This document shows positions 3,261 through 42,758 of a stretch of DNA of 50,071 bases, in pieces (position 1 is the stretch's first letter; every line of letters begins with the position of its first letter). This DNA is from an uncultured Planctomycetota bacterium (GTDB lineage: Bacteria > Planctomycetota > Brocadiia > CAIUPP01): positions 1 to 50,071 of the forward strand of contig CAIUPP010000091.1 of assembly GCA_903901045.1 (NCBI GenBank). Direction: 5' to 3'. A program made the position numbers and the translations under genes. The notes below the pieces were generated by a model. The model was not told the origin of the DNA. It saw nothing but the letters and a program-made list of their open reading frames with translations, and did not search any database.

Positions 3261-3287
3261 CCCCGGATGCCGCGTGTCACCCCCTTG

Positions 3288-3296: not shown

Positions 3297-3303
3297 TTCC
3301 GCC

Positions 3304-17452: not shown

Positions 17453-17560
17453 AGGGATTCCTTCCATTGGTGCAGGCGGGGTCACGAGCGCATCTGTGTC
17501 GGTACGAAACTGCACATTACGCCTCGCGAATGAACGATACGAAGCCCAACATAACACATG

Positions 17561-20127: not shown

Positions 20128-21198
20128 TCACACCTTGAACCGTATGTTCAGGATATCCCCATCCTGCACCACGTATTCCTTCCCCTCCAGCCGCTGCTTC
20201 CCCTGGGCCTTGGCCTCCTTGAGACCGCCGCACTCGTCGAAATCCTTGTAGGCGATCACCTCGGCGCGGATGAAGCCGCGCGCGATATCGGAATGGATCT
20301 TGCCCGCCGCCGTCAGCGCATTGTCCCCCACGCGGATCGTCCACGCGCGCACATCCGGCTCCCCGGCCGTGATGAACGAGCGCAGCCCCAGCGCGTCGTA
20401 GCAGGAGCGGATAATCCGCCGCGCCGCCGGCTCGCCGATCTTCAGCGCGTCCAGGAACTCCTGCCGCTCGGAGGGGTCCAGCTCCGCGATATCCTTCTCC
20501 GCGCGCGCGCAGATGGCAATGCTGTTGGCCCCCAGCTTCTCCAGCATCGCCGCCGTCTCCGGGCCGTGCAGCGCGTCCTCGTGCACGTTCAGCACCTTCA
20601 GCATCGGCTTCTCGCTCAGGAACTGGAAGGTGCGCAGAAGGAAGGATTCCTCCGAGGTCATGCTCAGGGTGTGGATCAACTCCCCCGACTCCAGCGCCTT
20701 TTGCAGACGCTGCATCAGGAGCAGCTCCTTCTTGTCCTTCTCCAGAGTGGCGGTGAACTTGCTGATCTGCTTTTCGAGTTTCTCGACGCGCGATTCCACG
20801 ATCGCCAGGTCGGCGACGATCAGCTCCGCCTCCATCTCCTTCACATCGCGCACGGGATCGAGCGTCTTTCGGGGGTGCGGCGGCGCGCTGGGGGAGTCGA
20901 AGAAGCGGATGACGTGCACCAGGCCGTCCGATTCGCGCAGCGCGGAAAGCGTGCTCAGAACCTGCTCGCGCTCCATCTCCGAGCCGACTCCGGCCACGTC
21001 CACGAAGTCCACGTGGGCGTACGTAATCTTTTTCGGCTGAATGAGTTGCGCCAGCTTGTCGATGCGCTCGTCCGGCACGGCGATGGTGGCGACCTGGGCT
21101 GCGCCGCTGCGGTCCGAGCCGGTGCCATGCGCCCCTGTGATCGCTGCGAAAAGTGTGCTCTTGCCGCTGTACGGCAGTCCGACGATTCCTACTCTCAT
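20128..21198 (-). CDS. ychF: YchF/OLA1-family nucleotide-binding protein
   Basis: The product has 356 residues. It is an Obg-related P-loop protein that binds ribosomes and hydrolyses ATP in preference to GTP. Seen here: G1 GLPYSGKSTLF at residues 6-16, switch and G3 segment VDVAGV, and VLNVHE in place of the GTP-specific NKxD. The N-x-x-E form is the known reason for ATP preference in this family. A central coiled coil (VEKLEKQISKFTATLEKDKKEL) and a C-terminal TGS domain (RAWTIRVGDNALTAAGKIHSDIARGFIRAEVI) complete it. The ATG is preceded by GGAGG four bases upstream; a longer frame to 21246 has no such site. Confidence 0.93.
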   Translation of the reverse strand: MRVGIVGLPYSGKSTLFAAITGAHGTGSDRSGAAQVATIAVPDERIDKLAQLIQPKKITYAHVDFVDVAGVGSEMEREQVLSTLSALRESDGLVHVIRFFDSPSAPPHPRKTLDPVRDVKEMEAELIVADLAIVESRVEKLEKQISKFTATLEKDKKELLLMQRLQKALESGELIHTLSMTSEESFLLRTFQFLSEKPMLKVLNVHEDALHGPETAAMLEKLGANSIAICARAEKDIAELDPSERQEFLDALKIGEPAARRIIRSCYDALGLRSFITAGEPDVRAWTIRVGDNALTAAGKIHSDIARGFIRAEVIAYKDFDECGGLKEAKAQGKQRLEGKEYVVQDGDILNIRFKV

Positions 21199-21561
21199 GG
21201 TTCCTCCATTCACGCGCAATCTATCAGACCCGCGCGCCGGAGGCAAACGACGCGCGACGGCGGGCGGCGATTACCACAGAGACGCGAAGAGCGCAGAGAA
21301 CGGCGAAGGTGGGCAACAGAGACGGCAACGGCTTCTCGCACAAACCCTTCGGCCGCGAGTTCAGGGCCGAGTGGGACGCAACGGCGCAAAGAACGACGGG
21401 ACAAGAGCAACAACGGCAACGGAGGCAGTTTAGACATGATAACAAGATTGACGAGCCGTTTGAGGCATCCGTAGAATTCATCTTGCGTTATCTTGTTATC
21501 TTGTCGAAGTCCGTTGTTGCCGTTCTCTGCGTTCTCTGCGTCTCTGCGGTGAAAGCCGTTC
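21199..21561. repeat. Intergenic inverted-repeat element between ychF and the DUF4432 gene
   Basis: In this 363-bp gap, CCACAGAGACGCGAAGAGCG near 21274 is the imperfect inverse of a CTCTGCGTTCTCTGCGTCTC tract at 21513-21553. Nested inside is a perfect 11-bp inverted pair, GATAACAAGAT (21438-21448) and ATCTTGTTATC (21490-21500). No gene is convincing. The outline is that of a nonautonomous element or a large bidirectional hairpin. Confidence 0.7.
21218..21246 (-). promoter_or_regulatory. Candidate sigma70 promoter for ychF
   Basis: On the minus strand, TTGCCT, 17 bases, then TAGATT. Both boxes match 4 of 6. The predicted leader is about 13 nt, just enough for the GGAGG site. Confidence 0.4.
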
Positions 21562-23418: not shown

Positions 23419-23811
23419 TCACCCCGCCTCCCCCGGCTCCTTCGGCACGACAATCAGCACCAGCCCGCGCCGGACCAGGTTGCGCAGGAAAATGGTGAGC
23501 GAGGCCTCCGCCTCTTTGCGGCTGAGCTTGTATCGCGCGGCCACGCGTTCCACCATCTCGCGGATGGCAAGGGAGCCGTCGCACAGGTCCCAGACGAACG
23601 TGCCGACTTCGTCCAGCTCGAACTTCGCGTCGCTGGGGGGCACTTTAAGCCAGCGGCAGAGCCGCTCGACCAGGGGGGAGGCGCGAAATGGAACGTACAG
23701 TGTGGCGACGTCGTCCGCGTCGCGCTCCACCCGCACCGCCGGGCTGCGCAGGGCGCGCGCGCCGAGGGATTGAATGCGCGTGAGCTCCGGTTTCTTCTTG
23801 CTCCAAAACAT
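23419..23811 (-). CDS. PqqD-family peptide-binding protein (orphan RRE)
   Basis: The product has 130 residues. The start MFWSKKKPEL has GGAG 7 bases upstream; longer frames run into repeat DNA. After a basic N-terminus and a beta segment (VATLYVPFRASPLVERLCRWL), the C-terminal two thirds match PqqD/RiPP-recognition elements: KFELDEVGTFVWDLCDGSLAIREMV then a winged-helix segment ending LVRRGLVLIV. PqqD proteins usually deliver precursor peptides to radical SAM or other modifying enzymes. No such enzyme or precursor is visible nearby. The downstream-transcribed position after the two-domain gene at 24110 suggests a partnership with that protein. Confidence 0.75.
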   Translation of the reverse strand: MFWSKKKPELTRIQSLGARALRSPAVRVERDADDVATLYVPFRASPLVERLCRWLKVPPSDAKFELDEVGTFVWDLCDGSLAIREMVERVAARYKLSRKEAEASLTIFLRNLVRRGLVLIVVPKEPGEAG

Positions 23812-24109: not shown

Positions 24110-25000
24110 TTAGCCTTCACTGCCTTCATGGCATTGCACGGCGCGAACCACGTCCCCCGCCTCCTGCTCGGCGGAATCCGGCCCCAGCCAGCGCACGGCG
24201 ACCAGCGAATTGGCCTCGGGGCAGTGCCAGGCAAGGCCGCGGATGAGCCGCCCGCGCAGCAGCCAGCGCCGCACGGAACGCCGCTCGCGGCTGGTCCAGC
24301 CCAGCGCCGGATGCCCGAGCCACTCCTTCTCCGCGTACTCCGTCTTGAGGCCGCCGGGGCCGATGATCTTGTCCGCCTCGATCCAGTCGCGCAGGCTCTT
24401 CTTTTTCAGCCAGATGTCCGCCAGCGAGGAACGCACGATATGCGCGATGCGGTTGCGCGCGCGGAACTCGAACTGCAACCGCCCGGCGCGCACGGCGTGG
24501 TCGAACAGCCGCCACGCCTCCGGCATGTCGAAGCGGAAACCATACGCCGCCCACGGCACGCGCCCCTCGACGGGATGGTCGCACCAGGAAGCGAACATCT
24601 CCTGCAGGACGGGCTTGAATTTCTCCTCCGGGTCGTACACCGCGCGCAGCAGCGCCACCCGCCCGCAGGTCGAGCAGCACGCCGCCATATGCATCGAGTC
24701 GCGCTCCCCCTTCACCAGGAAGAACTCGGTGTCCATCCCCGGCACGCTGACGAGGCGGACATCGCGCCGGAGTTGCACGTCGCGCTGGTTGAGTTTGGCC
24801 TTGCGGATGTAGGCCTCGGCCACGCTGCGCGCCGTGCTGGAGGAGCGCCCGAGCTGCCAGCGGATGTCCAGCCGGGCATACTCGGCGTCGTCGAGGCGGC
24901 AGTGCCCGCTCCGGGCATCGCCGTCAGCAGCGCCCATCTCCCAATCGGCGGGGACCTTGAGGCGAATGCCCTGCCAGGCGAATAGCGTCCATGAACTCAT
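24110..25000 (-). CDS. Two-domain hypothetical protein paired with PqqD
   Basis: The product has 296 residues of unknown function. Two related halves can be seen. The first begins FAWQGIRLKVPADWEMG with RLDDAEYARLDIRW. The second begins AAYGFRFDMPEAWRLFDHA with GRLQFEFRARNR. Each has the form hydrophobic strand, (V/M)PxxW, then a strand with an acidic/aromatic pattern, reminiscent of PsbP/Mog1-like folds. No signal peptide or membrane helix is seen, so it is probably cytoplasmic. The start MSSWTLFAW has AGGA 6 bases upstream. It precedes the PqqD gene on the same strand and follows the exporter operon after a repeat element. Confidence 0.65.
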   Translation of the reverse strand: MSSWTLFAWQGIRLKVPADWEMGAADGDARSGHCRLDDAEYARLDIRWQLGRSSSTARSVAEAYIRKAKLNQRDVQLRRDVRLVSVPGMDTEFFLVKGERDSMHMAACCSTCGRVALLRAVYDPEEKFKPVLQEMFASWCDHPVEGRVPWAAYGFRFDMPEAWRLFDHAVRAGRLQFEFRARNRIAHIVRSSLADIWLKKKSLRDWIEADKIIGPGGLKTEYAEKEWLGHPALGWTSRERRSVRRWLLRGRLIRGLAWHCPEANSLVAVRWLGPDSAEQEAGDVVRAVQCHEGSEG

Positions 25001-25020: not shown

Positions 25021-25174
25021 ACGGATTCAACGTTCAACATCCGACGTCCAACGTCCAACGTCCAACGTTCAAAGCAAGGCATGCCCTCGCGCGAACCGTT
25101 GGTTGTCATTCGTTGCCGTTCCTTGAACGTTGAAAGTTGAGCGTTGAGCGTTGAACGTTGGAAGTTGAATCCGT
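25021..25174. repeat. Inverted period-7 element (TTCAACG / CGTTGAA type)
   Basis: Perfect 11-bp ends, ACGGATTCAAC (25021-25031) and GTTGAATCCGT (25164-25174), enclose two converging heptamer arrays. The left array has seven units such as TTCAACG and TCCAACG; the right has GTTGAAA, GTTGAGC and so on. The right end abuts the last base of the ABC ATPase gene. A degenerate family-1 core (GCAAGGCATGCCC) lies at 25074. Confidence 0.85.
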
Positions 25175-25915
25175 TCACTGGTGTCCATCGATCGTGCCGA
25201 CGGTGATCTTGAGGTCGGCGCGGCGTTCGAGCCGCTCGATGGCGCCGTCGCGGATCCAGGCGACGCGGTCGCACAGGTTCAGCATCTTGTGGTCGTGGGT
25301 CGCGCTGATGACGGTGACGTGCAGCTCCTGGCTCAGCTTCTTGAGCAGGTGGATGATCTCCTCGCCGGTATGCAGGTCCAGGTTCGCCGTCGGCTCGTCC
25401 GCCAGCACGATAGCCGGGTCGTTGGCCATGGCGCGGGCGATGGCCACGCGCTGCTGCTGCCCGCCGGACATGCGCCCGGGGCGGTGGAAGATGCGCTCCC
25501 CGAGCCCGACGCGCTCCAGAATGCGCGCCGCCTTGTCCAGCGCGGTATCCTCATCCACGTTGGCGAAGAGCATCGGAATCTTGACGTTCTCCAGCGCCGT
25601 CAGCGTCGGCAGCAGGTTGAAGGACTGGAAGATGTACCCGATCTTGCGGCAGCGCATCCAGGCCAGTTCGTAGGCGTCCAACTGCGCGATATCCACGTCG
25701 TCGATGAACACCATCCCGTCGGTCGGCTTATCCAGCCCCCCGATCATGTTGAACAGCGTGCTCTTGCCCGAGCCGGAGGGGCCCATGATGGCGAGGAACT
25801 CGCCGCGGAAGATGTCCACGCTCACCCCGCGCAGCGCGTGCACCACTTCCTGCCCGCGGGAGAACTCTTTCCTGACGTCGATGGCGCGCACGACGACATC
25901 CTGGACGGTAGCCAT
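25175..25915 (-). CDS. ABC exporter ATPase, LolD/MacB type (ATPase 1)
   Basis: The product has 246 residues. It energises FtsX-type permeases of the MacB/LolCDE class. All motifs are intact: Walker A GPSGSGKSTLF (about 45-55), Q-loop region around IFQSFNLLP, signature MSGGQQQRVAIARAM, Walker B VLADEPTANLD, and a switch His in SATHDHKML. It follows the mini-FtsX stop directly (TAAATG) with GGAGG 5 bases upstream. It is the last gene of the six-gene operon. A second, paralogous ATPase is encoded two genes upstream. Confidence 0.93.
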   Translation of the reverse strand: MATVQDVVVRAIDVRKEFSRGQEVVHALRGVSVDIFRGEFLAIMGPSGSGKSTLFNMIGGLDKPTDGMVFIDDVDIAQLDAYELAWMRCRKIGYIFQSFNLLPTLTALENVKIPMLFANVDEDTALDKAARILERVGLGERIFHRPGRMSGGQQQRVAIARAMANDPAIVLADEPTANLDLHTGEEIIHLLKKLSQELHVTVISATHDHKMLNLCDRVAWIRDGAIERLERRADLKITVGTIDGHQ

Positions 25916-26593
25916 TTATTCCTCCACCCGCAACGCTTCAACCGGGCGCATCCTGGCGGCCAGCAGCGCGGGGTAGCCCGCTCCCACCAGGCAGAGGAAT
26001 ATCCCGGCGACGAAGCTGAGGCCCGAGTACACCAGCATGGAAGCCATCGGCATATAGCTGAAGGCGTACCCGCCGAATTGCAGCAGGCCGATCAGGAAGG
26101 TCAGCGCCAGCCCCGTCACGATCCCCACCAGCGAGCCGACCACCCCCATGAGCGAGGATTCGATCAGGAACAGCTTGACCACCGTGCTGTCCTCCGCGCC
26201 GAGGCACTTCATCGTGCCGATCTCGCGGAAGCGCTCCGTGACGGACATGAGCATCGCGTTGGCGATGCCGACGGTGCAGGTCAGCAGCGCCATCACCACC
26301 AGCCAGCGGTCCACCGGGTTGCCCAGGCGCACTTGGTCCGGGTTGATATTGGCCTGCCGCAGAAGGGTGAGCACCGCCTCGGCATCGCTGCCGGCCAGCG
26401 CCCGGATGAGCGCGCTGCTCACCCCGCTGTACGTCAGGTACGCGATGGCCAGAATCACGCTGATCAGCGTGACCAGCGAGCGCGTGATGCGCACCCGCAG
26501 CCCCGCCATCGCCAGCTGGAACAGCGTCTTGTTGGGCAAATGTGAGCTCTCGCTGCTCAATATCGCCAGCAGTTCTTCCGGGGTTTCGCTCAT
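25916..26593 (-). CDS. Minimal FtsX-family permease
   Basis: The product has 225 residues and four transmembrane helices: about 38-61 (LVTLISVILAIAYLTYSGVS), about 98-120, about 140-168, and about 187-215. The FtsX core is clear in GIANAMLMSVTERFREIGTMKCLGA and the final AGYPALLAARMRPVEALRVEE. The loop between helices 1 and 2 is only about 35 residues, whereas MacB, LolC and LolE carry a large periplasmic domain of roughly 200 residues there. It overlaps the upstream ATPase gene by ATGA, and a dedicated second ATPase follows, so the unit is ATPase-permease-ATPase. Confidence 0.88.
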   Translation of the reverse strand: MSETPEELLAILSSESSHLPNKTLFQLAMAGLRVRITRSLVTLISVILAIAYLTYSGVSSALIRALAGSDAEAVLTLLRQANINPDQVRLGNPVDRWLVVMALLTCTVGIANAMLMSVTERFREIGTMKCLGAEDSTVVKLFLIESSLMGVVGSLVGIVTGLALTFLIGLLQFGGYAFSYMPMASMLVYSGLSFVAGIFLCLVGAGYPALLAARMRPVEALRVEE

Positions 26594-27318
26594 GTGATGC
26601 TCCCGACCTGGATCTTCAGGTCCTCGCGCCGGACGATCTTCTCAATCCGTCCCCCCACCACCGTCACCACGCGGTCGCTCACCGAAAGCATCTTGTGATC
26701 GTGCGTGGCGCTGATGACGGTGACGTGCCGCTCATGGCTGAGCCGGCTGAGGTTCTCGATGATCTCCTCGCCGGTGTGCAGGTCCAGGTTGCCGGTCGGC
26801 TCGTCCGCCAGGATGATGCTGGGATCGTTGACGAACGCCCGCGCGATGGCCACGCGCTGCTGCTGCCCGCCGCTGAGCTCGTCGGGGCGGTGGTGCAACC
26901 GCTCGCCCAGACCCACCTGACCCAGTTGCACCGCCGCGCGGTCGCGCGCCTCGTTCTGCGGCAGCCCCAGCAGCAGCGCCGGCAGCGCCACATTGTCCAG
27001 CGCGGTCAGCACCGGAATCAGGTTGTAGCTCTGGAAGATATACCCCACCTTGCGGCAGCGCAGCCGCGCCGCGATGTGGCTGGGCAGCTTCCCCATCGCG
27101 TGCCCCAGCAGCGTCACCGTCCCGCGCGTGGGGCTGTCCAGCCCCCCGATCATGTTGAACAGCGTCGTCTTCCCCGAGCCGGAGGGGCCCATGATGGAGA
27201 CGTACTCCCCGCGCTGGATCTTCAGCGAGATCCCCTGCAACGCGCGGACGATCTCCCCCCCGATCCGGAATTCCCGGTGCACGTCCTGAACTTCCACGAC
27301 CACTTCGGACTCTGTCAT
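26590..27318 (-). CDS. ABC exporter ATPase, LolD/MacB type (ATPase 2)
   Basis: The product has 242 residues. Walker A GPSGSGKTTLF, IFQSYNLIP, signature LSGGQQQRVAIARAF, Walker B ILADEPTGNLD and SATHDHKML are all present, so it should be active. It is clearly paralogous to the ATPase at 25175-25915 (shared FNMIGGLD and DLHTGEEII segments). It overlaps both neighbours by ATGA. It may serve the long M28-like/FtsX permease while ATPase 1 serves the mini-FtsX, or the two may form a heterodimer; the sequence does not decide this. Confidence 0.93.
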   Translation of the reverse strand: MTESEVVVEVQDVHREFRIGGEIVRALQGISLKIQRGEYVSIMGPSGSGKTTLFNMIGGLDSPTRGTVTLLGHAMGKLPSHIAARLRCRKVGYIFQSYNLIPVLTALDNVALPALLLGLPQNEARDRAAVQLGQVGLGERLHHRPDELSGGQQQRVAIARAFVNDPSIILADEPTGNLDLHTGEEIIENLSRLSHERHVTVISATHDHKMLSVSDRVVTVVGGRIEKIVRREDLKIQVGSIT

Positions 27319-30065
27319 GGCTGGTACCGGTTAATGTCTATGGAGACTTTCGACAAGCCGAGGAGGAAAGCCATCAGCGACCAGAAGAAACAGGCCGCCA
27401 GCTCTCCGAAGAGCAGGCCGATGAACATCGGCCGCACCTTGGCGAACATATGCCGCCCGCCATACTTGACCGCCAGCTTCTTGCAGAGCCAGCCGACGAA
27501 GAAACCAAACCATAGCTGGCACATCAGCGGGTTGGCCATCATGGCGAAGCCGATCGGGTGCAGCCACCAGAAGAAGCGCCGGCGCATGATGACGCTCAGA
27601 AGGATCCAGCCGATGCCCAGAAGGTAGAAGATCCAGTTCGAGCCGCCCAGGCCGCCGGTCGAGCCGCTGACCAACTGCTGCGTCTGGCTGAAGATGTACC
27701 GGGGACCGGAGGTGAAGAACCAGGAGTTCGAGGAGTGGTTGGCCCCGACGGCGTAGACGAAATACAGCAGGGCGACCGCGGAAACCAGCACCGTGACGAC
27801 GATGGAGCTGATGACGATGGCGTGGAACCAGCGCCGGCTCGCGCGCGACTCCTCCTGCATCTTGAAACTGTTGATCACCGAGGGAGCCAGGTAGGTCTTG
27901 ATTTCGAGGAACAGGATCGAGTAGATGGGCATCAGCGGCGCCAGGACGGCGGGCGGAACCACGGTCTTCACCGCCCCGCCCTTGAGCAGCAGGCCGTTCG
28001 CGATCTTCGTCAGGTGGAACGGCCCGGTGTGAATCTGGAACCAGTACACCCCGCCCTCGGCCACGACGCGCATCAGCCCGACCGTGACCAGAATCACGAT
28101 GGCCATGAAGAGCAGCGACCAGGGCATCGGCACATTCGCCCACCAGAGCCAGCACAGCGTGATGATCATGCTCGCCAGGAAGATCACGCCGCCCCAGCCG
28201 AAATTCCGGGCGCAGCGCCAGAGCAGCGCCCCCTTCGACGGGGTCGCGCTCAACATCGCCCCGCCGGCCCCCAGCGCCCCCGCGAGTTGGTCGCGCGCCT
28301 GCGAGTACTTGTCCATCACCAGCTTGCCCAGCGTCACCCCCGCGAAGGCGAGCAACCCGCCGGCCCCCAGGCTGCTGACGAAATGGTTCTCCCAAATCCA
28401 GTCGCTGCTGAAGGACCTCACGGAGGCCCCGACGGCGGCGCGGATCGCTATGAAGAACAGGAACAGGCCGAACAGATGGTATATCCAGAGGCTCGCGCTG
28501 ATCTCCAGCGGCAGCAGGAAGCCGATGCCGATGGCGACAAAGCTCACCAGCACCACCAGCCCCGGCTGCGTCGAGTCGGCCAGCCCCTTGAAGATGGAGT
28601 TGTTCAGCATCACGCGCAACTGGCCCTGATCCACCCCCAGATGCAGCGGGTTGAGGCCGCGCAGCCATTCCGCCTGGGCGGCGGCATTGTAGCTGAGCAG
28701 GAGGAAGACAAAGCCGAAACCGCACCAGAACAGGCCGCTGCGCAACGTGGAACTGAGCGAGCCGGGGGGAGCCCCCTCGTCATGCATCACATCCTCGGGC
28801 AGCCGCGCCAGCGGGAACACCAGCTTCTCGCGCCGCGCCCAACTGTCGTACATCATCATGGAAAGGCTGTAGAACATCAGGTAGATGGCGAAGACGAAGA
28901 TGAACCAGAGCGCCAGCGGCTTCACCCAGACGGCCCACGGAATCGCCTTCCACAGGTTGACCCCCGGCTTGAACCCCTCGCGATACTCCTGCACGCGCGG
29001 AACGTCGCTGATGAACAGCGCCGGGTTCAGGTACGGGATGACGTCCTTGTCCCAGCGGGCCTGCGGGATGTTCATCGCCGGGTCGTGCGGCGTGGCTATC
29101 AGCGGGATCAATTGGTCCATGAGGCCGAAGGTGCAGATGCCGGCTGTCACGAAGAGCGCGGCGAACATGGCCATCAATTCGCCGCGGTTGAACGGTCCCA
29201 GCCAGCGGAACGGCCGGTGGCACTCCTCGGGCTTCGAGGCCACGTGGTGGAGCAGGGTGAACAGAATGAATCCGGCGAAGGCAAGCTGGGTCATGAAGAA
29301 GAAACCGTTGGCCGCGTGCCCCAGCAGCGCCAGGAAGGCCAGCAACTGGGCCCCCAGGAAAATCGCCAGGCCGGCGAAACGCGCAACGCGCGAACGCACC
29401 AGGAGCGAGGCGCCCACCGCCACCAGGATTGCGCCCAGGTCCAGCAGCACGGCGATGCCGGCGAACCGCGCAAATGCCAGGTCGTCCGGGGAGGCCAGCG
29501 TCGCGCCGCAGAAGAACGCTTTCAGCGCCGGGAAGAGGCCGATCTTGGCCACGATGGCGCCCGGCAGCGGATACGGCAGGAACAGCCCCACCGCGATCGC
29601 CTGCGCCCCGATGGCCGCCGCGCCCACGATCAACCCAAGGCTCAGCGGCCTGCGGAACGCCATGCGCGCGGCTATGATCGCCGCCACCCCCAGCACGGTC
29701 AGGCGCAGCCCGGCCTGGCTATCCGCTTGGTGACCGGGGATGAACGGAACCAGCATCAGCACCAACTGCGCGCCGCACAGCGTCATCGCCAGCGCCGCCG
29801 GCCACCAGAGCCGCAGCAGCGGGTTCAGCAGCAGCGTCAGCCCCAGCAGGAACGCAAAGGAGATGACCGGGATCTGCGTCGCGATCGGGTAGATCGGGGT
29901 CGGGTTGAACTCGAACGTGTAGTCCAGAAGCACCTGGCCGACCGAGAGCAGCACCGCCAGCGGCAGCACGATCCACCAGCGGATGTGCAGCGCCGGCCGC
30001 TCCGCAAGCTGGATCTGCTCCATCCGGTCCGCGTCGATGCGATTGAATGTCCCGTTCTCTGCCAT
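27315..30065 (-). CDS. Large polytopic membrane protein, DUF6785/DUF6784-like
   Basis: The product has 916 residues and roughly 18-20 hydrophobic segments. The chosen ATG (MAENGTFNRI) has GGGAAG just upstream and lies 13 nt after the previous stop. A short cytoplasmic N-terminus precedes IRWWIVLPLAVLLSVGQ. The pattern ELMAMFAALFVTAG, then a periplasmic loop with YLNPALFISDVPRVQEYREGF, then IPWAVWVKPLALW and MYDSWARREKLVFPLARLP resembles DUF6785 proteins as I remember them; a profile search was not possible. Function is unknown. It lies inside the exporter operon and overlaps ATPase 2, so it is likely a subunit of or substrate handler for that machine. Confidence 0.8.
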   Translation of the reverse strand: MAENGTFNRIDADRMEQIQLAERPALHIRWWIVLPLAVLLSVGQVLLDYTFEFNPTPIYPIATQIPVISFAFLLGLTLLLNPLLRLWWPAALAMTLCGAQLVLMLVPFIPGHQADSQAGLRLTVLGVAAIIAARMAFRRPLSLGLIVGAAAIGAQAIAVGLFLPYPLPGAIVAKIGLFPALKAFFCGATLASPDDLAFARFAGIAVLLDLGAILVAVGASLLVRSRVARFAGLAIFLGAQLLAFLALLGHAANGFFFMTQLAFAGFILFTLLHHVASKPEECHRPFRWLGPFNRGELMAMFAALFVTAGICTFGLMDQLIPLIATPHDPAMNIPQARWDKDVIPYLNPALFISDVPRVQEYREGFKPGVNLWKAIPWAVWVKPLALWFIFVFAIYLMFYSLSMMMYDSWARREKLVFPLARLPEDVMHDEGAPPGSLSSTLRSGLFWCGFGFVFLLLSYNAAAQAEWLRGLNPLHLGVDQGQLRVMLNNSIFKGLADSTQPGLVVLVSFVAIGIGFLLPLEISASLWIYHLFGLFLFFIAIRAAVGASVRSFSSDWIWENHFVSSLGAGGLLAFAGVTLGKLVMDKYSQARDQLAGALGAGGAMLSATPSKGALLWRCARNFGWGGVIFLASMIITLCWLWWANVPMPWSLLFMAIVILVTVGLMRVVAEGGVYWFQIHTGPFHLTKIANGLLLKGGAVKTVVPPAVLAPLMPIYSILFLEIKTYLAPSVINSFKMQEESRASRRWFHAIVISSIVVTVLVSAVALLYFVYAVGANHSSNSWFFTSGPRYIFSQTQQLVSGSTGGLGGSNWIFYLLGIGWILLSVIMRRRFFWWLHPIGFAMMANPLMCQLWFGFFVGWLCKKLAVKYGGRHMFAKVRPMFIGLLFGELAACFFWSLMAFLLGLSKVSIDINRYQP

Positions 30066-30078
30066 GACTTCCCGTATT

Positions 30079-32091
30079 TCAGTACAAGAGCGTTTCAATG
30101 GACTTTGCGATCAGCGCGATACCGACTCCCGCCATCGCCATGAGGCCCAGCCCGCAGATGAATCCCGCCAGCACGACCGGCACGATCTGACGCCAGCGCT
30201 TCACGCCGAACTTGCGCTGGAAGAAGTAGCGGCCGATGAGCGCGCCGATGAACTCTCCCAGCAGGTTGCCGGGGCTCATCTGCCCGATGCCGCGGACGAG
30301 CCCGAAGATAATGAACGTCGGCAGGTTGCATACCATCAGCAGCAGGTATCCGAAGACCCCGATCGCCGCGCCGATTGTCAGGTACGACGGGTTGAGCGCC
30401 TCCAGGAACCGCGAGCCCCCCGTCATGGTCGACGTGTAGGTCAGGCAGGAGTTCAGCGCCTGCAAGCGCCAGACTTCCTGCGTGAAGGGGTACGCTTCGG
30501 AGGGGATGGGTCCCAGCCGCCAGATGAATTCACTGAACAGCAGGCTAGCCACGATGATCACCGGGATGGTCACCAGTTCGGTCTTGATCAGGCTGGTGAA
30601 CTTCGTGCCGGTGAGCTCCACCACGCGGAACATGCGCGTCTCCGCGCCGTAGTCCATGATGGGGATCGGCACGAACCAGATGGCCACGCCGCGATAGCCC
30701 GAGAGGATGAACGCCGCCTCGCGCACCAGCGGAATCGCCACCGCCTGCCCCACGAGCCCTTCCAGCTTGGCCGAGACGTAACTGATCAGCGGGGTGTAAA
30801 TGAAGGCGAATATCAGGAAGAACATCGTGGGGAATCGGTCCCCGCTCCCCCCGCTCATGCTGTTGATCATCCAGCGGCTCAGGAAGATGTACATGAACGT
30901 GCTGACGACGTAGATGGCAATGCTGATCCAGATGGGGATGTCGCCGCGCAGCCGGTTGTAGCGGAACGCTTCCAGCAGGCTGTGCGATTCCGCCCCCACC
31001 GCCGTGGAGCCGGTGCGCTTGCGAATCCAGCGCATCAGCAGCGGCCCGACCGTCGTCCCGATGCTGATCAGGAAGATGGCGAACGTCAGCCCGATGCTCA
31101 ACGAGAGGTAGAAGTCGATCTGGTTGCTGTACAGCGTGTCCACCAGACCCATCCCCTCCTGCCACGTCGGGAGGTACCCGTAGTGATACAGAATGGGGTT
31201 GGCGATCATCGTCAGCACCACCCCGATGAACCCGCCGACCGCCGCCCAGAAGGGCAGCACCATACCGGTGACCACCAGCGTCAGGTCGAAGACCAGGTTG
31301 AGCGGAGTGGCCGGCAGTATCTTCTCAGTCTTGGCGGTCAGGTCGAGCCAGGGGATCGGCAGAAGCTGGTACGGCGTGCCCAGGAACGAACCGGTGAACG
31401 AGGGGATGCCGATGTAGATCAGCCCGAACACCAGCCCGATCATGCCGCCGATGGCAAACACGGTCCATCGCCCCCGCGTGCGCTGCTCGCGGTCCTCCGC
31501 CAGCACCACCACCCCCTGCGCATCCACCGGAGCCATCGGGTACGGCAGCTTCTCCCCGTGCGCCGTGAGCCGGTACAGCGCATAGCCGAGGCCGAAACCG
31601 TTGATGCGCGTGATGAGCAACTGGAAGCTGATCAGCAGGATCGGGTAGAGCCAGTACTTGTTGAAGAAGGTATTGCCGGTTTGGCGGATCGTCTCGGCGG
31701 AGGGGGCGCACCAGACCGGGATCTCCGAGGAGATGCCCATCGCCTGCGCCACGTCGGACTGCACCAGGTACTGCGTCCAAAGCAGCCCCTGGAAGGGCGT
31801 GGCCAGGGCGACGCCCGTCATGTAGAACAGGATGAACACTTCCTGCTGACGCAGGCTCTTGAGCGAGCGGCGCGCCACCTCGGCGAAGAGGATCACCGTC
31901 ACCCAGCGCGCGGCCGGCCCCAGCCCCGCCCCCATGAAGAGCATCAGGTACATCGACCCCGGCAGCATGAACAAGCCGAGGAAGAGCGCGCCGATGATGG
32001 TCTTGCCGCTGAACCCGTCCTCGAACGTCGAGGGGGGCGTCATGACCTCCCGGAGCATCTGAACTTCTTTTTCCTGGCGGCCCTGGCTCAT
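30079..32091 (-). CDS. Polytopic membrane protein, OPT-transporter-like pattern, function unknown
   Basis: The product has 670 residues and about 14-16 hydrophobic segments. The ATG overlaps the upstream stop (ATGA), with GGAG 11 bases before it. The segment HGEKLPYPMAPVDAQGVVVLAE and the Gly-rich helices (ALFLGLFMLPGSMYLMLFMGAGLGP; PGNLLGEFIGALIGRYFF) recall oligopeptide-transporter (OPT) or DUF6785-type proteins, but I cannot place it firmly. The following gene encodes a larger protein of similar topology, so the pair may be two arms of one channel. It sits between the M28-like/FtsX fusion and the two ATPases in one overlapping operon. Confidence 0.75.
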   Translation of the reverse strand: MSQGRQEKEVQMLREVMTPPSTFEDGFSGKTIIGALFLGLFMLPGSMYLMLFMGAGLGPAARWVTVILFAEVARRSLKSLRQQEVFILFYMTGVALATPFQGLLWTQYLVQSDVAQAMGISSEIPVWCAPSAETIRQTGNTFFNKYWLYPILLISFQLLITRINGFGLGYALYRLTAHGEKLPYPMAPVDAQGVVVLAEDREQRTRGRWTVFAIGGMIGLVFGLIYIGIPSFTGSFLGTPYQLLPIPWLDLTAKTEKILPATPLNLVFDLTLVVTGMVLPFWAAVGGFIGVVLTMIANPILYHYGYLPTWQEGMGLVDTLYSNQIDFYLSLSIGLTFAIFLISIGTTVGPLLMRWIRKRTGSTAVGAESHSLLEAFRYNRLRGDIPIWISIAIYVVSTFMYIFLSRWMINSMSGGSGDRFPTMFFLIFAFIYTPLISYVSAKLEGLVGQAVAIPLVREAAFILSGYRGVAIWFVPIPIMDYGAETRMFRVVELTGTKFTSLIKTELVTIPVIIVASLLFSEFIWRLGPIPSEAYPFTQEVWRLQALNSCLTYTSTMTGGSRFLEALNPSYLTIGAAIGVFGYLLLMVCNLPTFIIFGLVRGIGQMSPGNLLGEFIGALIGRYFFQRKFGVKRWRQIVPVVLAGFICGLGLMAMAGVGIALIAKSIETLLY

Positions 32092-35000
32092 CGGGCGACG
32101 TTCTCCTTCACCGGGAACTCACGCGCGGCGGCGAACATCGCCTCGCCCTGGATGCGGAACTGCTCCTGGTTGGCCAGCGATTGGGAGCGCCAGCTCAGCA
32201 GCCGCGCGCGCAACGACTCCATGAAAGGCTGGTTCACCACCAGCCAACTGCTCCGGTCCCCCTTCACGCGGGTGACGTGGACGCACAGCACGTGCGCGCG
32301 CACGCGCTGCACGTAATGCCCGTAGATCTCCAGCCGCTGGTTCACCCCCAGGTCGAACGGCACCGGGGTGATGCTGTAGAGCATGGTCCGCACGTTGCGC
32401 CCCTCGCGGTCGCGCACGAAACCGAAGCGCGCGTCCTGCGCCAGGAACTGGCCGGAGGAGGCCTCGCTGTTCAGGTCCATGAAGGCGTGGAGGAACGCGC
32501 ACACCCCCGGCAACTGCTCCTCGCTGAAGCTGAACGGGAAGTCCAGCCGCAGCTCATCCCCCTCGGGCGCGGGCAGCTTCCAGCGCCTCTGACCCGACGG
32601 GACCGACGCGCGCGTGGCGACGTACGCCGGATACAGCGTGCTCACGATCACCGTGACGATCGACGCGAAGATCACCCCGATCACCGCCATGCTGGAGTAG
32701 TTCAGCGGCATCCCCGGCAGCCAGTTGTAATAGCTGATCAGCAGCGCCAGCCCCTGGCCGATGACGTACCCGCTCACCGCCCCCACCAGGCCGAACACGA
32801 TCGCCTCGGCCACGAAGAAGACGAAGACGTGCGTCGGGTTCAGCCCGATGCTGTTGTACACGCTGATTTCCTTCTTGCGCTCCATCACCGCGCCGAGCAT
32901 GGTGTTCAGGATAATCGTGGCCGCCAGGCAGATCGGGATGAGCACCTTGCTGACCCCGCCCACGCTGGTACCGCGCGCCGGCCCCAGACTGTACTGGGCG
33001 GCGCTGATGCTCGCCCCCTGCTCCGGAGTAATCTTCTCGGTGATCCCCGTGTAGGTGAGCGTGCCGGTGGCGTCCACAAAATGGTTCGCGGCTTTCCAGG
33101 CGCGCAGGCTGGCGGATTCCCCGCCCTGCGCATCCGCCTTCACGGCGATGGTGCGCACCGTCGTGTCCGGCAGCCTCAGGGCGAAACCAATCGGCAGCAG
33201 CACGCAATTGACCGCGCGCAGCGCGCTGGCCGCCGGAACGGGGCTCGCCGTGGCATCCTCGGCGCTGACGCTCATCTGCCCGGTCTCATTCACCGACTTG
33301 GTCACCGGATCGGGCCGGCTCTCCAGCGGAAGCAGCGGGAGCTTCGCCAGGTCGGTCATCGCCGAAAGCTTCTCATCATCCAGCAGGCCGACCAGCGTCA
33401 CCTTCTCGTTGCGCAGGTACAACTCGCGCGGCGTAAAGTTCGCCGGGGTGATCCCCAGAATGCCGGCCGCCTCGGTCGAGAGGAGCATCTCGCGCGCGTC
33501 GCCGCTGCTGAACCAGCGCCCCGCCGTCAGCGGCATGGGAGCGATGAAGCCGTTCTCGGCCATCTCCACCCCCAACAGGCTCTTGGCGACGATGAGGTTC
33601 TTCGGGTTCTGCGCGTCGATGACCTCCAGCCGCAGGTAGTCGCCCAGGCCGTCCAGGCGCTGCGTCCAACTGCGCATCACCACCTGGCCGTACGGGCGCA
33701 GAACCTGCGAAATCTGCCGCTGCGCGCTTTCCCGGATCGGCTCCATCCCCGGCTTGGCGAACAGCACCCCGGCGTACGGAACGTTCGGTTCCGTCTGGCG
33801 CCGGTAGGGCGTCAGCGAGGTCCCCACGCTGATGACCGACAGCATCGTGAAGGTCACCAGCACGATCGTCGCCGCGGTCAGCGAGGTGCGAATGCGCCGC
33901 CGGCGCATGTTGTTCACCCCCACCGAAAAGGCCACCCCCGCCAGCGCCTTGCGCGAACTCTCCGCCGATTCCACCCCCTGCGACTCTTCCACAAGCTGCT
34001 TCAGCCCGCTATCGAAGCGCCCGTGCAGAATGAACATGACGAACACCGCCAGCCCCACCATCATGAACGCCAGCAGCACCATCATCGGGGTCTGCGAAAG
34101 GCTGAAGGCCGGGTGCAGCAGCGCCAGCGCCGTGGCCATCAGCGCGAAGATGATCAGGAAGCTTCCGATCTGCGCGCGCACGTCGGTCCACGGGATCACC
34201 AGCTTCATGGCGAACATGCAGAAAGGAATGACCAGCGCCAGGAACACCGCCACCGCCTTGATCAGGTCGCTGGTGGTGTCGCGCACCATGCGATAGGAGC
34301 GCAACGAACTGCTCAGCGCCTCAATCGCCTTGCTGAGGAAGAGGCTCTGGTCTCCCGCGCCGCGGGCCTGATCGGCTTGGACGATCAGCCCCTGCGCCTG
34401 CTTGAACAGGAGCGCGGCGGCGGGGTTGGTCACCCCCTTCTTCTCGATGCGCCCGAGCCGCATGGCGTTCAGCGTCTGCAAGTCCGCCGCGGCGGTGGTG
34501 GTGATCATCCCCAGGCGCTTGTCGCCGGGGAAGAAGCCGGCGCCGGTGGGGTTATCCTTGGTGGCGTTGATGAGGATGAAGTCGTCGGAAACGATCTTGA
34601 ACGGCACGTAGCCGTCGGTGAAGATGCAGGCGATCCCCTCTTCCCCGGTGATCGGCTTGAACTTAGCGGAGCGCGTCTCCGCGATCCCCGCGATGCCGTA
34701 GTGGTCGGGGCTGGCTTCGCGGATGGCGTCCAGCAGGATGATGCTGGGGGTGCGCACGCGCGTCCCCGGATTGTACGTGCCAACCAGGTCGGTCTGAATG
34801 CAATCGAACATCAGGCAGAACTGGTCCGCCCAAAGCCAACTGGATCCGGCCTGCGGGATGTTGGGGTCTACGCGGCGCGCCCCCGCGCCCGCGTCAATGA
34901 CGGCGCTGAGGCCGCTGAAGTCCTCCTTGAAACCATACGCCTCGATGCAACCCACCGCGGGGATGGCCCGGAAAAGCGCCTCCCCCTGCCGGTTCGACAG

Positions 35001-37076
35001 GGCGATCTGGTAGAGGCAGACCTGTCCGTAGACGGCGCGCGGCAGCGGCTCCAGGAGCACGGCGGAGGCGCTTCGCGGAAGAACCTGCCCGGGCACCACG
35101 ACCACCGCGCCGCCGACGAGCGGCTCGCGCGGAATCTCGACCGAGTACGGATCGATCCGGCGCAATTTGTAGCGGAAGGAGACCACCCGGTAATTCGTGA
35201 GGCGGACCGGACGAATGGCCGTCGGAAATTCTTCGCTGGCCAGGAGGCCGGTGATCAGCTTCTGGGCGAACGCCATCATCCCCGCCACGCGCTCGCGCGG
35301 CAGTTGGGCCAGCGTATCGCGCGGCGTGAACTGGATATTGCGCGGGTCGGCCGTGGTGGTCAGGGTCAGGCTGGGGATCGCCTGGTTGTCCCCTGCCGAG
35401 CAGGCCAAGGGGAATTTGTCGGCCAGGTGGTTGTGCCAGTCGATGCCGCCCGCGCTCAGAATGGTATTGGCGAAGAACCGTTCGCCGTCCTTCAACTGCT
35501 TGGCGACCTCCACGGCGACGCGCGCGGCCGGCTTGCATTCCTCAAGCTGGATGGTCCAGGGAACCTCCGGCCCCTGGGCGAAGAAGCCCATCCGCTCATT
35601 GCCGAAGCTCAGGTCCAGCGAGAGATAGAGGTAGACGCTCTTCCCTTCCAGTTGTCTGGCCAGCCGGCCGTTCTCGTCGATATCGCGGATCGCGCGATCG
35701 GCGTCCTGGAACTGCTCCTGGTAGCGCGCGTGAATCGCGGCCATGTCGGCGCGGAACATCGCCTGCCGGCGGGCCAGCACCGCCCCCTCCCCCATGTTCT
35801 CGAAGGTGGAAGTGCCCCCCCAGCGTTGAAGGACGGAGGCCATGGCGATGTAATCGTCCCGCACCTCCGCCAGCCGGTCCCGCTCCGCCTTGACCTTCGC
35901 CATCTGATCGGCAGGCAGATCGGTGCGGTGCAATTGGTCTTCGGCCAGCGCAATGCTGTGGCGCGCCCGGTTGCGCTCGTACTCGAACCGGCGCAGCAGC
36001 GGCTCTTTCAGGAACAGCGTGCGGCCGCTCTCGTCGGACTGGGCCGCGCGCAGCAGGGCGATCTTCTCCGGCGTGCGGTTCTCCGGGCCGTACACCGCGG
36101 CGAAGAACTTCGCCTCGCGCAGGTCGCGCTCGCGCGAGTCCAGTTCATCGCTTTGCGTGGGCGGGAAGGGATACGCGGCGGCCAGGAAAAACTGCTCGCC
36201 GCGCAGGTAGTTGCAATGATCGCTCACCGCGCTGAAGACCAGGGTGACATCCGGCGGGTTGGCCTTGTAGTAATCCAGCAGGCGCAGCAGCAACGCCAGG
36301 CTGCACGCGCTCTCCGCCCCGAAACTCAGGTCGGGCGCCACGCAGGAAGCGTCCTTGAACGCCTGCAGGTGCACCACCTTGTCCGCGTTCGGCCCGGTGC
36401 CCGGCACGATCACCCAGTCGTCGGCCCCCTCGATCGACTCCCATCGATTCGGGCGCGTCTGGGTCAGCGTCACCTCGGCGCCGCGCGACTCCCCCAGCGC
36501 GGCGCGCAGCGTCGCGGCATCCTGCTCGGTCAGGTAGAAACGCGGCACGCTGATCGGCGTGGGATAGACCACCCCGGAGGCGTCGCGCCCGGTCTCCTGC
36601 CCGCCTGCGAAAATGAGCGCCTGCGCGCCCAGCTCCAGCGCCGTCACCCACGCGCGCCGGCTGTTCATGTCCAGAAGCACCGCCGCGTTCATCGGGCTGG
36701 CCACCGCCAGATCCTCCGCCGTCCCCTTGCGCAGGTCCACCAGCTTCCCGCTCCAGAGGCCGTTGGGCAGATTGCCGGGGTGAATGCTGTTGGGCATCAG
36801 GCTGTGCAGCGGAAGGGTTGCTCCGCCGGGGAGCGTGAGTTGAGTTTCGCCGGGGACGAAAGCGACCGTGGGGAAAGTGATCTGCCCGCTCGTGAAGCCG
36901 CTCTCTCGGAAGCGCTTGGCTACATATTCATCCAGCGCCTTGCGGCCCGGAGAGCCCATGTTGCGGATGGGCGCAATCTGCAGAAGTTGCTCGACGTCCG
37001 GCAGGTCAGATTCAGCGGCGCACAGCGGAAGGCCGATGCTCAACAGGATCAGTAACGGCGCAACCCAATGCTTCAT
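32088..37076 (-). CDS. Signal peptide - degenerate M28 peptidase-like domain - FtsX permease fusion
   Basis: The product has 1662 residues. A signal peptide (about 1-21, LLILLSIGLPLCAA) leads to a PA-like segment and an M28-type alpha/beta domain (about 230-620): VVHLQAFKDASC, FGAESACSLALLLRLL, VTLVFSAVSDHCNYLRGEQFF, and later PLACSAGDNQAIPSLTLTT. Active M28 enzymes show AHYDS, GADDNASG, an EE pair and SDH; most of these ligands are replaced here, so catalysis is doubtful. Membrane helices appear at about 940-1030 and 1065-1085. A periplasmic domain follows, then the FtsX core (about 1375-1490) with GAVMERKKEISVYNSIGLNPTHVFVFF. A soluble tail of about 150 residues closes it. It is the first gene of the six-gene operon. 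Confidence 0.85.
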   Translation of the reverse strand: MKHWVAPLLILLSIGLPLCAAESDLPDVEQLLQIAPIRNMGSPGRKALDEYVAKRFRESGFTSGQITFPTVAFVPGETQLTLPGGATLPLHSLMPNSIHPGNLPNGLWSGKLVDLRKGTAEDLAVASPMNAAVLLDMNSRRAWVTALELGAQALIFAGGQETGRDASGVVYPTPISVPRFYLTEQDAATLRAALGESRGAEVTLTQTRPNRWESIEGADDWVIVPGTGPNADKVVHLQAFKDASCVAPDLSFGAESACSLALLLRLLDYYKANPPDVTLVFSAVSDHCNYLRGEQFFLAAAYPFPPTQSDELDSRERDLREAKFFAAVYGPENRTPEKIALLRAAQSDESGRTLFLKEPLLRRFEYERNRARHSIALAEDQLHRTDLPADQMAKVKAERDRLAEVRDDYIAMASVLQRWGGTSTFENMGEGAVLARRQAMFRADMAAIHARYQEQFQDADRAIRDIDENGRLARQLEGKSVYLYLSLDLSFGNERMGFFAQGPEVPWTIQLEECKPAARVAVEVAKQLKDGERFFANTILSAGGIDWHNHLADKFPLACSAGDNQAIPSLTLTTTADPRNIQFTPRDTLAQLPRERVAGMMAFAQKLITGLLASEEFPTAIRPVRLTNYRVVSFRYKLRRIDPYSVEIPREPLVGGAVVVVPGQVLPRSASAVLLEPLPRAVYGQVCLYQIALSNRQGEALFRAIPAVGCIEAYGFKEDFSGLSAVIDAGAGARRVDPNIPQAGSSWLWADQFCLMFDCIQTDLVGTYNPGTRVRTPSIILLDAIREASPDHYGIAGIAETRSAKFKPITGEEGIACIFTDGYVPFKIVSDDFILINATKDNPTGAGFFPGDKRLGMITTTAAADLQTLNAMRLGRIEKKGVTNPAAALLFKQAQGLIVQADQARGAGDQSLFLSKAIEALSSSLRSYRMVRDTTSDLIKAVAVFLALVIPFCMFAMKLVIPWTDVRAQIGSFLIIFALMATALALLHPAFSLSQTPMMVLLAFMMVGLAVFVMFILHGRFDSGLKQLVEESQGVESAESSRKALAGVAFSVGVNNMRRRRIRTSLTAATIVLVTFTMLSVISVGTSLTPYRRQTEPNVPYAGVLFAKPGMEPIRESAQRQISQVLRPYGQVVMRSWTQRLDGLGDYLRLEVIDAQNPKNLIVAKSLLGVEMAENGFIAPMPLTAGRWFSSGDAREMLLSTEAAGILGITPANFTPRELYLRNEKVTLVGLLDDEKLSAMTDLAKLPLLPLESRPDPVTKSVNETGQMSVSAEDATASPVPAASALRAVNCVLLPIGFALRLPDTTVRTIAVKADAQGGESASLRAWKAANHFVDATGTLTYTGITEKITPEQGASISAAQYSLGPARGTSVGGVSKVLIPICLAATIILNTMLGAVMERKKEISVYNSIGLNPTHVFVFFVAEAIVFGLVGAVSGYVIGQGLALLISYYNWLPGMPLNYSSMAVIGVIFASIVTVIVSTLYPAYVATRASVPSGQRRWKLPAPEGDELRLDFPFSFSEEQLPGVCAFLHAFMDLNSEASSGQFLAQDARFGFVRDREGRNVRTMLYSITPVPFDLGVNQRLEIYGHYVQRVRAHVLCVHVTRVKGDRSSWLVVNQPFMESLRARLLSWRSQSLANQEQFRIQGEAMFAAAREFPVKENVAR

Positions 37077-37428
37077 CTATCGGCCTGTTCCTTCTAGACA
37101 TATGAATGGAACGAGTTCGACCGCGCCCGAATCCTTTAGTCCCTGATGGAGCGCCCGCCTTCCCCTCCCGGCCAACCGCAAGGCAAGCCCCATTAGCCCA
37201 TTGCGCCGGCTGAAAAGGCAGGGAGTACTTTTACCAAAAGCGAGGGGGGGGCGTCAATCGGCTAAACGGATTCAACGTTCAACGCGGTGCGCACGGCACA
37301 CCTGATCCAACGTTCAACGTCCAACATTCCAATGACGCCAACGAATTTAGCTCGCATGAGGCGGCGATACATCGGCATTCTCGTGTAACGCGCGGGGGGC
37401 ATAGCGAGGGATGGGCCTTTGCAGACAG
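37077..37428. other. Intergenic region before the exporter operon, with one period-7 element
   Basis: This 352-bp region has no supported gene. An ACGGATTCAACGTTCAACG tract at 37265-37330, with AACGTTCAACGTCCAACATT, is a degenerate relative of the 25021-25174 element. A short minus-strand frame at 37262-37543 overlaps it and is not coding-like. Confidence 0.65.
37265..37334. repeat. Period-7 element, TTCAACG family
   Basis: The sequence starts ACGGATTCAACGTTCAACG, has a 28-bp unrelated insert, then CCAACGTTCAACGTCCAAC. It shares its left end exactly with the element at 25021. Confidence 0.7.
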
Positions 37429-38623: not shown

Positions 38624-38730
38624 ACGTTCAACTTTCGACATTCACTTGACGGCAACAACGACAGCCTGCCCGCGCCGCTTGTTCGTTGTTCATTGAACGT
38701 TGAAAGTTGAAAGTTGAACGTTGCATCCGT
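38624..38730. repeat. Period-7 element, TTCAACG family
   Basis: The left end TTCAACTTTCGACATTCAC and the right end GAACGTTGAAAGTTGAAAG, followed by TTGAACGTTG, converge around a G+C-rich centre. It is related to the elements at 25021, 37265 and 39107. Confidence 0.75.
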
Positions 38731-41666: not shown

Positions 41667-42758
41667 TCAAGCAACCAGGAACGCCTCGAGCGACCTCGGC
41701 AGGGAGGTCAGACTGACGTGGCCGTTGCGCGTGACCCGCAGCATGTCCTCGATGCGCACTCCGCCTGCGCCGGGCAGGTAAACGCCCGGTTCGACTGTAA
41801 TGACCATACCCGGTCGGAGCAGTGTTTTCTGGCCGCGCGCAAGCGTTGGGGCCTCGTGCACGTCCAGACCGACCCCGTGTCCCAGGCTATGGCCGAAGTG
41901 CTTGCCGTGCCGGTGCGCCTTGAGGTAGTTCCGGGCAACGGCATCGATCGCGCCTGCCGTCCGGCCCGCTCTGACCTGCCTCACCGCTCGGCGTTGAGCG
42001 GCCAGCACGACGGAGTGCAGACGCCGATACAACGGGGGGATTCTATCCAAGAAGGCCATACGTGTCAAGTCAGCGTTGTACATCTGCACGCGCGCGCCCC
42101 AATCGAACAGCGCCGCCTCGCCCCGTTTCAGCTTGCGCTGCGAAGGGCGCGCGTGAGGCAGACTCGGGCGCTCGCCGAATGCGACAATCGACTCGAACCC
42201 CGGCTGATCGGCCCCCAGCTCCTCCATCGTGCGGTCGAGCAGGCGCGCGATCTCCAGTTCAGTGACCCCCGGAGCCAGGCGCGCAACCGTCAGGCGGAAC
42301 GCCTCCTCGGAAATGGCCACGGCCTGTTCGATCGCCGCCAACTCCGAGCCATCCTTGATGACGCGCAATCGCTCCACCAGCCCGCGCGACGGCATCACCT
42401 GCGCCTTGCCGGTCCAGCGGCGCAACTCCTCCAACTCAGCCACCGTCATCGCCGCGCTCTCGATCCCCAGCCGCTTCACCCCCGCCCGCCGCGCCGTTTC
42501 GGCCGCCGCGCGCATCAGTCCCTTGCGCCGGGTGACGATTCGAACGCCCCCGGTCTCCTGTCCCGCCTGCTCCGTAAACCGCGAGTCCGTAATGAGATGC
42601 GCCTCACCGGCCGCCACCAGCAAAGCGCTGTCCTCCCCCCGGAACCCGCTCAGGTAGTACACGTTGCGCCGGTTGGTCACCAGCAGACCTTCGAGTTTCT
42701 CCCGGCGCAAAAGCTTCACAAGCCGCCCGCGGCGCGCGGCGCATGAGACGTTGACCAT
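41667..42758 (-). CDS. M24 family Xaa-Pro peptidase
   Basis: The product has 363 residues. It is a creatinase-type N-terminal domain followed by a pita-bread M24 domain that cleaves X-Pro bonds with two metal ions. The ligands can be traced: first Asp in ALFDWGARVQMYNADLTR plus the second Asp eleven residues on, His in GHSLGHGVGLDVHEAP, Glu in ITVEPGVYLPG, and the final Glu in GGVRIEDML. The start has GGGAGG 9 bases upstream. The pairing with efp is conserved in bacteria and may reflect the shared handling of proline-rich sequences. Confidence 0.93.
   Translation of the reverse strand: MVNVSCAARRGRLVKLLRREKLEGLLVTNRRNVYYLSGFRGEDSALLVAAGEAHLITDSRFTEQAGQETGGVRIVTRRKGLMRAAAETARRAGVKRLGIESAAMTVAELEELRRWTGKAQVMPSRGLVERLRVIKDGSELAAIEQAVAISEEAFRLTVARLAPGVTELEIARLLDRTMEELGADQPGFESIVAFGERPSLPHARPSQRKLKRGEAALFDWGARVQMYNADLTRMAFLDRIPPLYRRLHSVVLAAQRRAVRQVRAGRTAGAIDAVARNYLKAHRHGKHFGHSLGHGVGLDVHEAPTLARGQKTLLRPGMVITVEPGVYLPGAGGVRIEDMLRVTRNGHVSLTSLPRSLEAFLVA

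Follow-up and report, generated by a model that had tools for sequence, protein, structure and literature searches.

The 50,071-nucleotide window analyzed here, from an uncultured Planctomycetota bacterium (contig CAIUPP010000091.1), carries on its minus strand a run of genes belonging to a conserved and, as it appears, undescribed planctomycete set of eight genes. These encode an FtsX permease fused to an M28-like ectodomain (hereafter M28-FtsX), two polytopic membrane proteins (POLY670 and a DUF6785 protein), a short second permease (mini-FtsX), two ATPases (A and B), a protein of no known family (F330), and a PqqD/RiPP recognition element (RRE)-like protein. Sequence comparison identifies the two FtsX permeases and two LolD-type ATPases as a type VII-like ATP-binding cassette (ABC) core. 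As judged from its predicted structure and from profile searches, POLY670 is a relative of the OPT superfamily with the Yellow Stripe 1 fold, and the DUF6785 protein is, by profile comparison, a distant homologue of both POLY670 and OPT. The composition of the set is strongly conserved and the gene order partly so; the components act as one system of two modules, the second of which can lie elsewhere.

Co-occurrence and gene order across Planctomycetota

The distribution of the protein families was assessed in a sample of 246 Planctomycetota genomes, in which M28-FtsX was counted at E values of 1e-45 or better, DUF6785 above its cut-off and mini-FtsX at E ≤1e-30; genes in the relatives were called by simple picks of open reading frames (ORFs). 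POLY670 was found in 34 of these genomes, and DUF6785 and M28-FtsX in 33 each; every pair among the three has 32 genomes in common (Fisher p about 1e-36, a value that ignores shared descent). Mini-FtsX occurs in 32 genomes, 31 of which encode POLY670 (p = 8e-35, again ignoring descent), and, of the 23 genomes with F330, 22 also encode POLY670. The genomes with POLY670 spread over 15 families; none of the 14 genomes sampled from the class to which the window belongs carries the system. A scan of all genome contigs with one protein returned two close loci only. The M28-FtsX gene lies directly upstream of the POLY670 gene at all 37 loci with a visible upstream gene, and the divergences of the two proteins are correlated (r = 0.72; 0 of 2000 permutations). 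The ordinary OPT genes of the phylum have no M28-FtsX or ABC-type neighbors within 1.5 kb.

All six families of the contiguous run are found together at locus L033 and also, with an order close to that of the window, at L035 (in a 33%-GC genome). At loci L162, L163, L165, and L169, the set is split into M28-FtsX/POLY670 and F330/PqqD/mini-FtsX/ATPase. In G079 (loci L116 and L117), the only genome that has M28-FtsX but lacks POLY670, M28-FtsX lies beside DUF6785; one or two DUF6785 genes in this genome directly precede mini-FtsX, ATPase, and M28-FtsX, as though replacing POLY670.

An earlier sequence-only reading of this DNA had proposed a six-gene operon that forms a single system. A single conserved system is indeed what emerges, with components in 15 families and strong co-occurrence, and tests for homologues scattered without their partners or for an order confined to this genome did not refute it. 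Counting the six families showed that they co-occur, whereas their order is conserved only in part; the six genes are all present, but the set proved to comprise eight genes in two modules, F330 and the PqqD-like gene being the additions. The tight coupling of the genes had been taken to imply a single complex: co-occurrence supports one conserved system, whereas a physical complex is what we infer.

Organization of the gene run

All six minus-strand ORFs at 25175-37076 were recovered, with a third-position GC content of 0.90-0.93, as in real genes of the host's GC-rich genome (Table 1). The close packing described from the sequence, in which neighboring genes overlap by ATGA or lie no more than 13 bp apart, is confirmed: overlaps join M28-FtsX to POLY670 (32088-32091), DUF6785 to ATPase A (27315-27318), and ATPase A to mini-FtsX (26590-26593); the ATG of the DUF6785 gene lies 13 bp past the end of POLY670; and ATPase B starts immediately after mini-FtsX, with no spacer. 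The F330 and PqqD-like genes, downstream on the same strand, are set off in the window by spacers of 174 and 298 bp. Homologues of both lie inside the gene run at L032, L033, L040, and L042, and the PqqD-like gene adjoins F330 at these loci as well as at L162-L167 and L169. Promoter and terminator scans gave no signal exceeding chance. Intergenic arrays of a 7-bp unit (CAACGTC/CAACGTT, reverse complement TTGAACG) were observed at 25028-25072, 25123-25169, 37308-37329, and 38693-38723; those at 25028-25169 face each other, forming an imperfect inverted repeat precisely between ATPase B and F330.

Table 1 Genes and domains of the eight-gene set in the window
Feature	Position	Strand	Basis
M28-FtsX fusion permease, 1662 aa	32088..37076	-	Pfam, PDB matches, structure prediction, hydropathy
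Extracytoplasmic part of M28-FtsX, residues 22-930	34287..37013	-	AF2 model, fold comparison, alignment
FtsX permease module of M28-FtsX, residues about 1066-1490	32607..33881	-	Pfam FtsX, PDB matches
POLY670, OPT-superfamily membrane protein (predicted), 670 aa	30079..32091	-	AF2 model, Pfam matches of relatives, profile comparison
DUF6785+DUF6784 polytopic protein, 916 aa	27315..30065	-	Pfam; alternative TTG start at 30098 possible
ATPase A, LolD/YbbA/MacB class, motifs intact	26590..27318	-	Pfam ABC_tran, NCBIfam profiles
Mini-FtsX permease, 225 aa, short extracytoplasmic loop	25916..26593	-	Pfam FtsX, hydropathy
ATPase B, LolD class, motifs intact	25175..25915	-	Pfam ABC_tran, NCBIfam profiles
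F330, 296 aa, no known family	24110..25000	-	Conserved partner; TTG start at 25030 possible
PqqD/RRE-like protein, about 130 aa from ATG	23419..23811	-	PF05402; ORF opens at 23976

The ABC core and the fusion permease

Both permeases match Pfam FtsX (65.4 and 51.2 bits; cut-off, 25.5), in line with an FtsX core (the C-terminal TM2-TM4 block) and with matches to MacB, LolC, and YtrF, and both ATPases, which are 61% identical to each other, match Pfam ABC_tran and retain the GPSGSGKS/T, SGGQQQR, and LADEPT motifs, in agreement with the sequence-only assignment of two LolD-type ATPases and an FtsX domain in each permease. The best NCBIfam profiles of the ATPases are LolD, MacB, and YbbA, and every equivalog cut-off is missed: LolD (224 and 220; cut-off, 307.75), FtsE (192 and 199; 264.85), YbbA (201 and 218; 336), and MacB (221; 966). 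The known partners of type VII ABC systems are adaptors, chaperones, an amidase activator, and a lipid hydrolase; no MacA-type adaptor was found among the conserved partner families, the neighboring ORFs having been scanned in part. With MacAB-TolC, LolCDE, FtsEX-EnvC, and YbbAP-TesA, the set described here shares ATPases of the LolD class, permeases with an FtsX core, a large extracytoplasmic domain as predicted for the fusion permease, and a function set by the partner (PMC12646458). Unlike in those systems, one permease carries a 900-aa pseudo-M28 ectodomain and three extra transmembrane (TM) helices and pairs with mini-FtsX, an FtsX core whose TM1 and TM2 lie only about 40 residues apart, and the partners are membrane proteins assigned to the OPT superfamily; the earlier claim that the set is unlike MacAB, LolCDE, or FtsEX thus stands.

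The fusion protein begins with a signal peptide (residues 1-21), followed by an M28+PA pseudo-peptidase ectodomain with a beta-rich stalk, the three TM helices (about 943-1017), an FtsX module of MacB/LolC type, and, at the C terminus, a conserved cytoplasmic domain (1492-1662). The FtsX module (Pfam FtsX, E = 1.6e-13; PDB matches, MacB, LolC, and YtrF) has a TM1-TM2 stretch of about 285 residues by hydropathy. The AlphaFold2 (AF2) model of residues 22-930 (pLDDT, a per-residue confidence score, 88.7; the predicted structures were built from 30-36 sequences) is closest to an M28-fold glutaminyl cyclase (Z = 27.1) and also matches the transferrin receptor (Z = 25.4 over 384 residues). Because of these matches, the core of the ectodomain is predicted to consist of M28 plus PA, so that structure prediction bears out the label "M28-like" where Pfam could not detect M28. 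The catalytic EE pair is missing in all 33 aligned relatives and the zinc His in 29 of the 33; an ordinary M28 enzyme from the same genome (L153:899-2185; PF04389, E = 3e-31) retains the catalytic and zinc residues. Given these losses, M28-FtsX is not classified as a peptidase, and the model and alignment together indicate a catalytically dead M28 fold. The fold and the PA insert are common to M28 peptidases, glutaminyl cyclases, the transferrin receptor, and GCPII, from which the fusion differs in lacking the catalytic residues, in its long helical insert, and in the attached ABC permease. A PDB search with the C-terminal domain gave no useful match, and homology of this domain to F330 was ruled out (E = 0.6).

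Two predicted relatives of the OPT superfamily

Neither Pfam nor NCBIfam gives a match to the window POLY670 itself; Pfam OPT is matched by 11 of 36 POLY670 relatives (best E, 8e-18). Foldseek with the AF2 model, built on 36 relatives (pLDDT, 85.9), retrieved barley Yellow Stripe 1 (YS1; 7wst and 7wsr) at E = 8e-11 and no other entry below 0.001, and VIA-align matched the model to YS1 with Z = 21.4 over 549 residues (root-mean-square deviation, 4.2), the next entry having Z = 4.2. Comparison of the POLY670 profile with 12 ordinary planctomycete OPT proteins gave a probability of 94.6% (E = 7e-8). The 916-aa protein, earlier called DUF6785-like, is confirmed as such by Pfam (DUF6785, E = 3e-58, 198.1 bits with a cut-off of 25; DUF6784, E = 5e-21, 75.2 bits with a cut-off of 26.4); its profile matches that of POLY670 (97.2%, E = 5e-11) and that of OPT (90.7%, E = 1e-6). 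An E-x-L-x-x-P motif is common to DUF6785 and POLY670, and the DUF6785 protein bears an additional N-terminal TM region. The similarity between the two is detectable only with profiles, BLASTP showing none. PDB sequence searches with POLY670, its profile, and DUF6785 produced no true relative (DUF6785 drew only chance ankyrin-repeat matches), a plasmid search with POLY670 produced no match, and no paper on DUF6785 was found in the open-access literature.

Transport by YS1, an elevator-like importer coupled to protons, is impaired when Asp446, Asp490, or Asp494 is mutated (PMC9691689). Of these residues, Asp490 and Asp494 match aspartates that are invariant among ordinary OPT proteins; in a remote alignment, the respective positions hold an acidic residue in 3 and 4 of the 36 POLY670 proteins, and both are serine in the window DUF6785 protein. 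Because these aspartates are missing, POLY670 and DUF6785 would represent a divergent branch rather than ordinary OPT transporters, although many invariant residues are kept within POLY670. In its predicted fold and profile homology, POLY670 thus resembles the YS1/YSL branch of the superfamily, from which it departs in the missing core aspartates and in the constant association of its gene with that of an ABC permease.

Some planctomycete genomes carry an expanded set of DUF6785 genes, with 22 first-look candidates in genome G130. The stand-alone DUF6785 loci (L103-L122) mostly lack FtsX or M28 neighbors, and the genes found there (sulfatase, GFO/IDH/MocA, phosphorylase, Na/Pi cotransporter, Roadblock/LC7, SRP54) show no consistent substrate theme. 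With so many copies away from motor genes, part of the family must function otherwise, without the motor.

Accessory proteins

F330 has no Pfam or NCBIfam match, and a PDB search with it gave no useful match. The PqqD-like protein resembles PqqD/RRE proteins in that its domain exceeds the Pfam cut-off (PF05402, E = 1.2e-12, 48.4 bits; cut-off, 23.4) and differs from them in that the PqqD-like proteins here fall below every NCBIfam equivalog cut-off and in that no gene for the maturation of ribosomal peptides (RiPPs) was present among the neighbors scanned. A Peptidase_M24 (Xaa-Pro peptidase-like) gene is found near the operon in two cases, in the window (41667-42758) and at L042:3048-4397; such neighbors would suit a peptide substrate.

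Proposed mechanism and alternatives

Tentatively, with a probability that we put slightly short of even, the eight proteins would form an inner-membrane machine for ATP-powered uptake in which the ABC core works with the two OPT-superfamily proteins, F330, and the PqqD-like protein. The two permeases and two ATPases would assemble into one asymmetric heterodimeric motor, and the dead M28/PA ectodomain, by analogy with the pseudo-M28 transferrin receptor, may act as the receptor of a ligand resembling a peptide or a chelate. In type VII ABC systems, ATP-driven motion is passed to the outer side of the membrane, the function is typically defined by the partner, and the substrate generally does not pass through the motor (PMC12646458, PMC5985334). 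Because such motors work on this outer side and do not themselves convey the substrate, the path through the membrane would be provided by the OPT-like pair, to which ATP-driven motion of the ectodomain may hand the substrate or which it may gate. As the core aspartates that are invariant in ordinary OPT proteins are missing, ATP may stand in for, or assist, the proton gradient; the PqqD-like protein, together with F330, may receive or sense the substrate at the cytoplasmic face. A bolder version, which we regard as rather doubtful, is that of an OPT elevator protein that has lost proton coupling and is energized by a mechanotransmission ABC motor.

In favor of the uptake machine are the OPT-type fold and homology of the polytopic proteins, the pseudo-M28 ectodomain, the MacB/LolC-type permeases with their LolD-type ATPases, the pairing and correlated divergence of M28-FtsX and POLY670, the matching distribution of mini-FtsX and F330, the lack of such neighbors beside ordinary OPT genes, and the missing aspartates. 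Several points weigh against it. Type VII ABC systems are not known to drive import, and PqqD-like proteins usually act in ribosomal-peptide biosynthesis, which would suit export. The co-occurrence p-values take no account of shared descent, the aspartate argument depends on a remote alignment, and many DUF6785 copies lie away from motor genes. What the analysis shows is the parts, their predicted folds, their co-occurrence, and, by alignment, the residue losses; the complex, its substrate, its direction, and the energetics are inferred.

The exporter proposed in the sequence-only reading is not favored because both polytopic proteins are assigned to the OPT superfamily, of which the characterized members named here import: YS1 and, according to work cited in PMC7340319, the bacterial protein CptA, which takes up Cys-Gly. 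Export of lipoproteins or glycans, suggested in the same reading, received no specific support. A more concrete export scheme, in which the PqqD/RRE-like protein brings a ribosomal peptide within the cytoplasm, the OPT-like pair carries it outward, and the type VII ABC then drives it out of the periplasm, would account for the conserved PqqD-like partner and accords with the export of peptides and siderophores by MacB-type systems (PMC5985334). It appears unlikely in view of the import by characterized OPT proteins, the sub-threshold equivalog scores of the PqqD-like proteins, and the lack of a RiPP maturation gene among the scanned neighbors. Less likely still is a regulatory or sensing machine like FtsEX or BceAB, both of which are type VII systems, with the ABC core relaying a signal or controlling an envelope enzyme and the OPT-like proteins acting as sensors or pseudo-transporters: the dead M28 domain could serve as a sensor and the lost aspartates could mean lost transport, but two full-length OPT-fold proteins would be costly sensors, POLY670 retains many invariant residues, and no conserved sensor kinase or hydrolase neighbor was found in the neighborhoods scanned. 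Arguably, the genes might instead specify two separate, co-inherited machines of the same pathway, a type VII ABC pump alongside OPT-type transporters that work independently, given that DUF6785 is found away from motor genes and that the operon divides into two modules in some genomes; the strictest pairing, however, joins the permease to the OPT-like protein, with invariable adjacency and correlated divergence, and we consider this alternative about as improbable as the export scheme.

Other features of the window

The minus-strand gene at 11024-17557 encodes a 2177-aa protein that combines Rha78A-type Ig, fibronectin III, and Big_5 domains. This large protein, probably located on the surface or secreted, adjoins a PDZ-domain protein (10077-11018). 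The plus-strand genes at 3274-10016 encode a helicase-nuclease pair, AddB-like and UvrD/AddA-like, and apparently form an ordinary AddAB recombination operon. A YchF-like GTPase (20128-21246), present as a single copy in the genome, shows 36-37% identity to genomes of the same class and up to 46% to other families, which would fit either a deep lineage or a doubtful class placement or contig binning and deserves a check.

Implications

In the open-access literature, we found no paper combining FtsX, M28, permease, and fusion, nothing relevant on OPT with FtsX or on OPT in planctomycetes, and no account of a type VII ABC motor paired with OPT-class membrane transporters. Should the pairing prove physical, one machine would unite a primary transporter with a secondary one, and the first functional context would follow for DUF6785/DUF6784, which 33 of the 246 planctomycete genomes in the sample carry, some of them in many copies. 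If the elevator version holds, this would be the first ATP-driven OPT protein and the first type VII ABC to take part in moving substrate across the inner membrane, by way of a partner protein. The eight-gene set names a concrete, testable complex for a phylum in which envelope transport is poorly understood.

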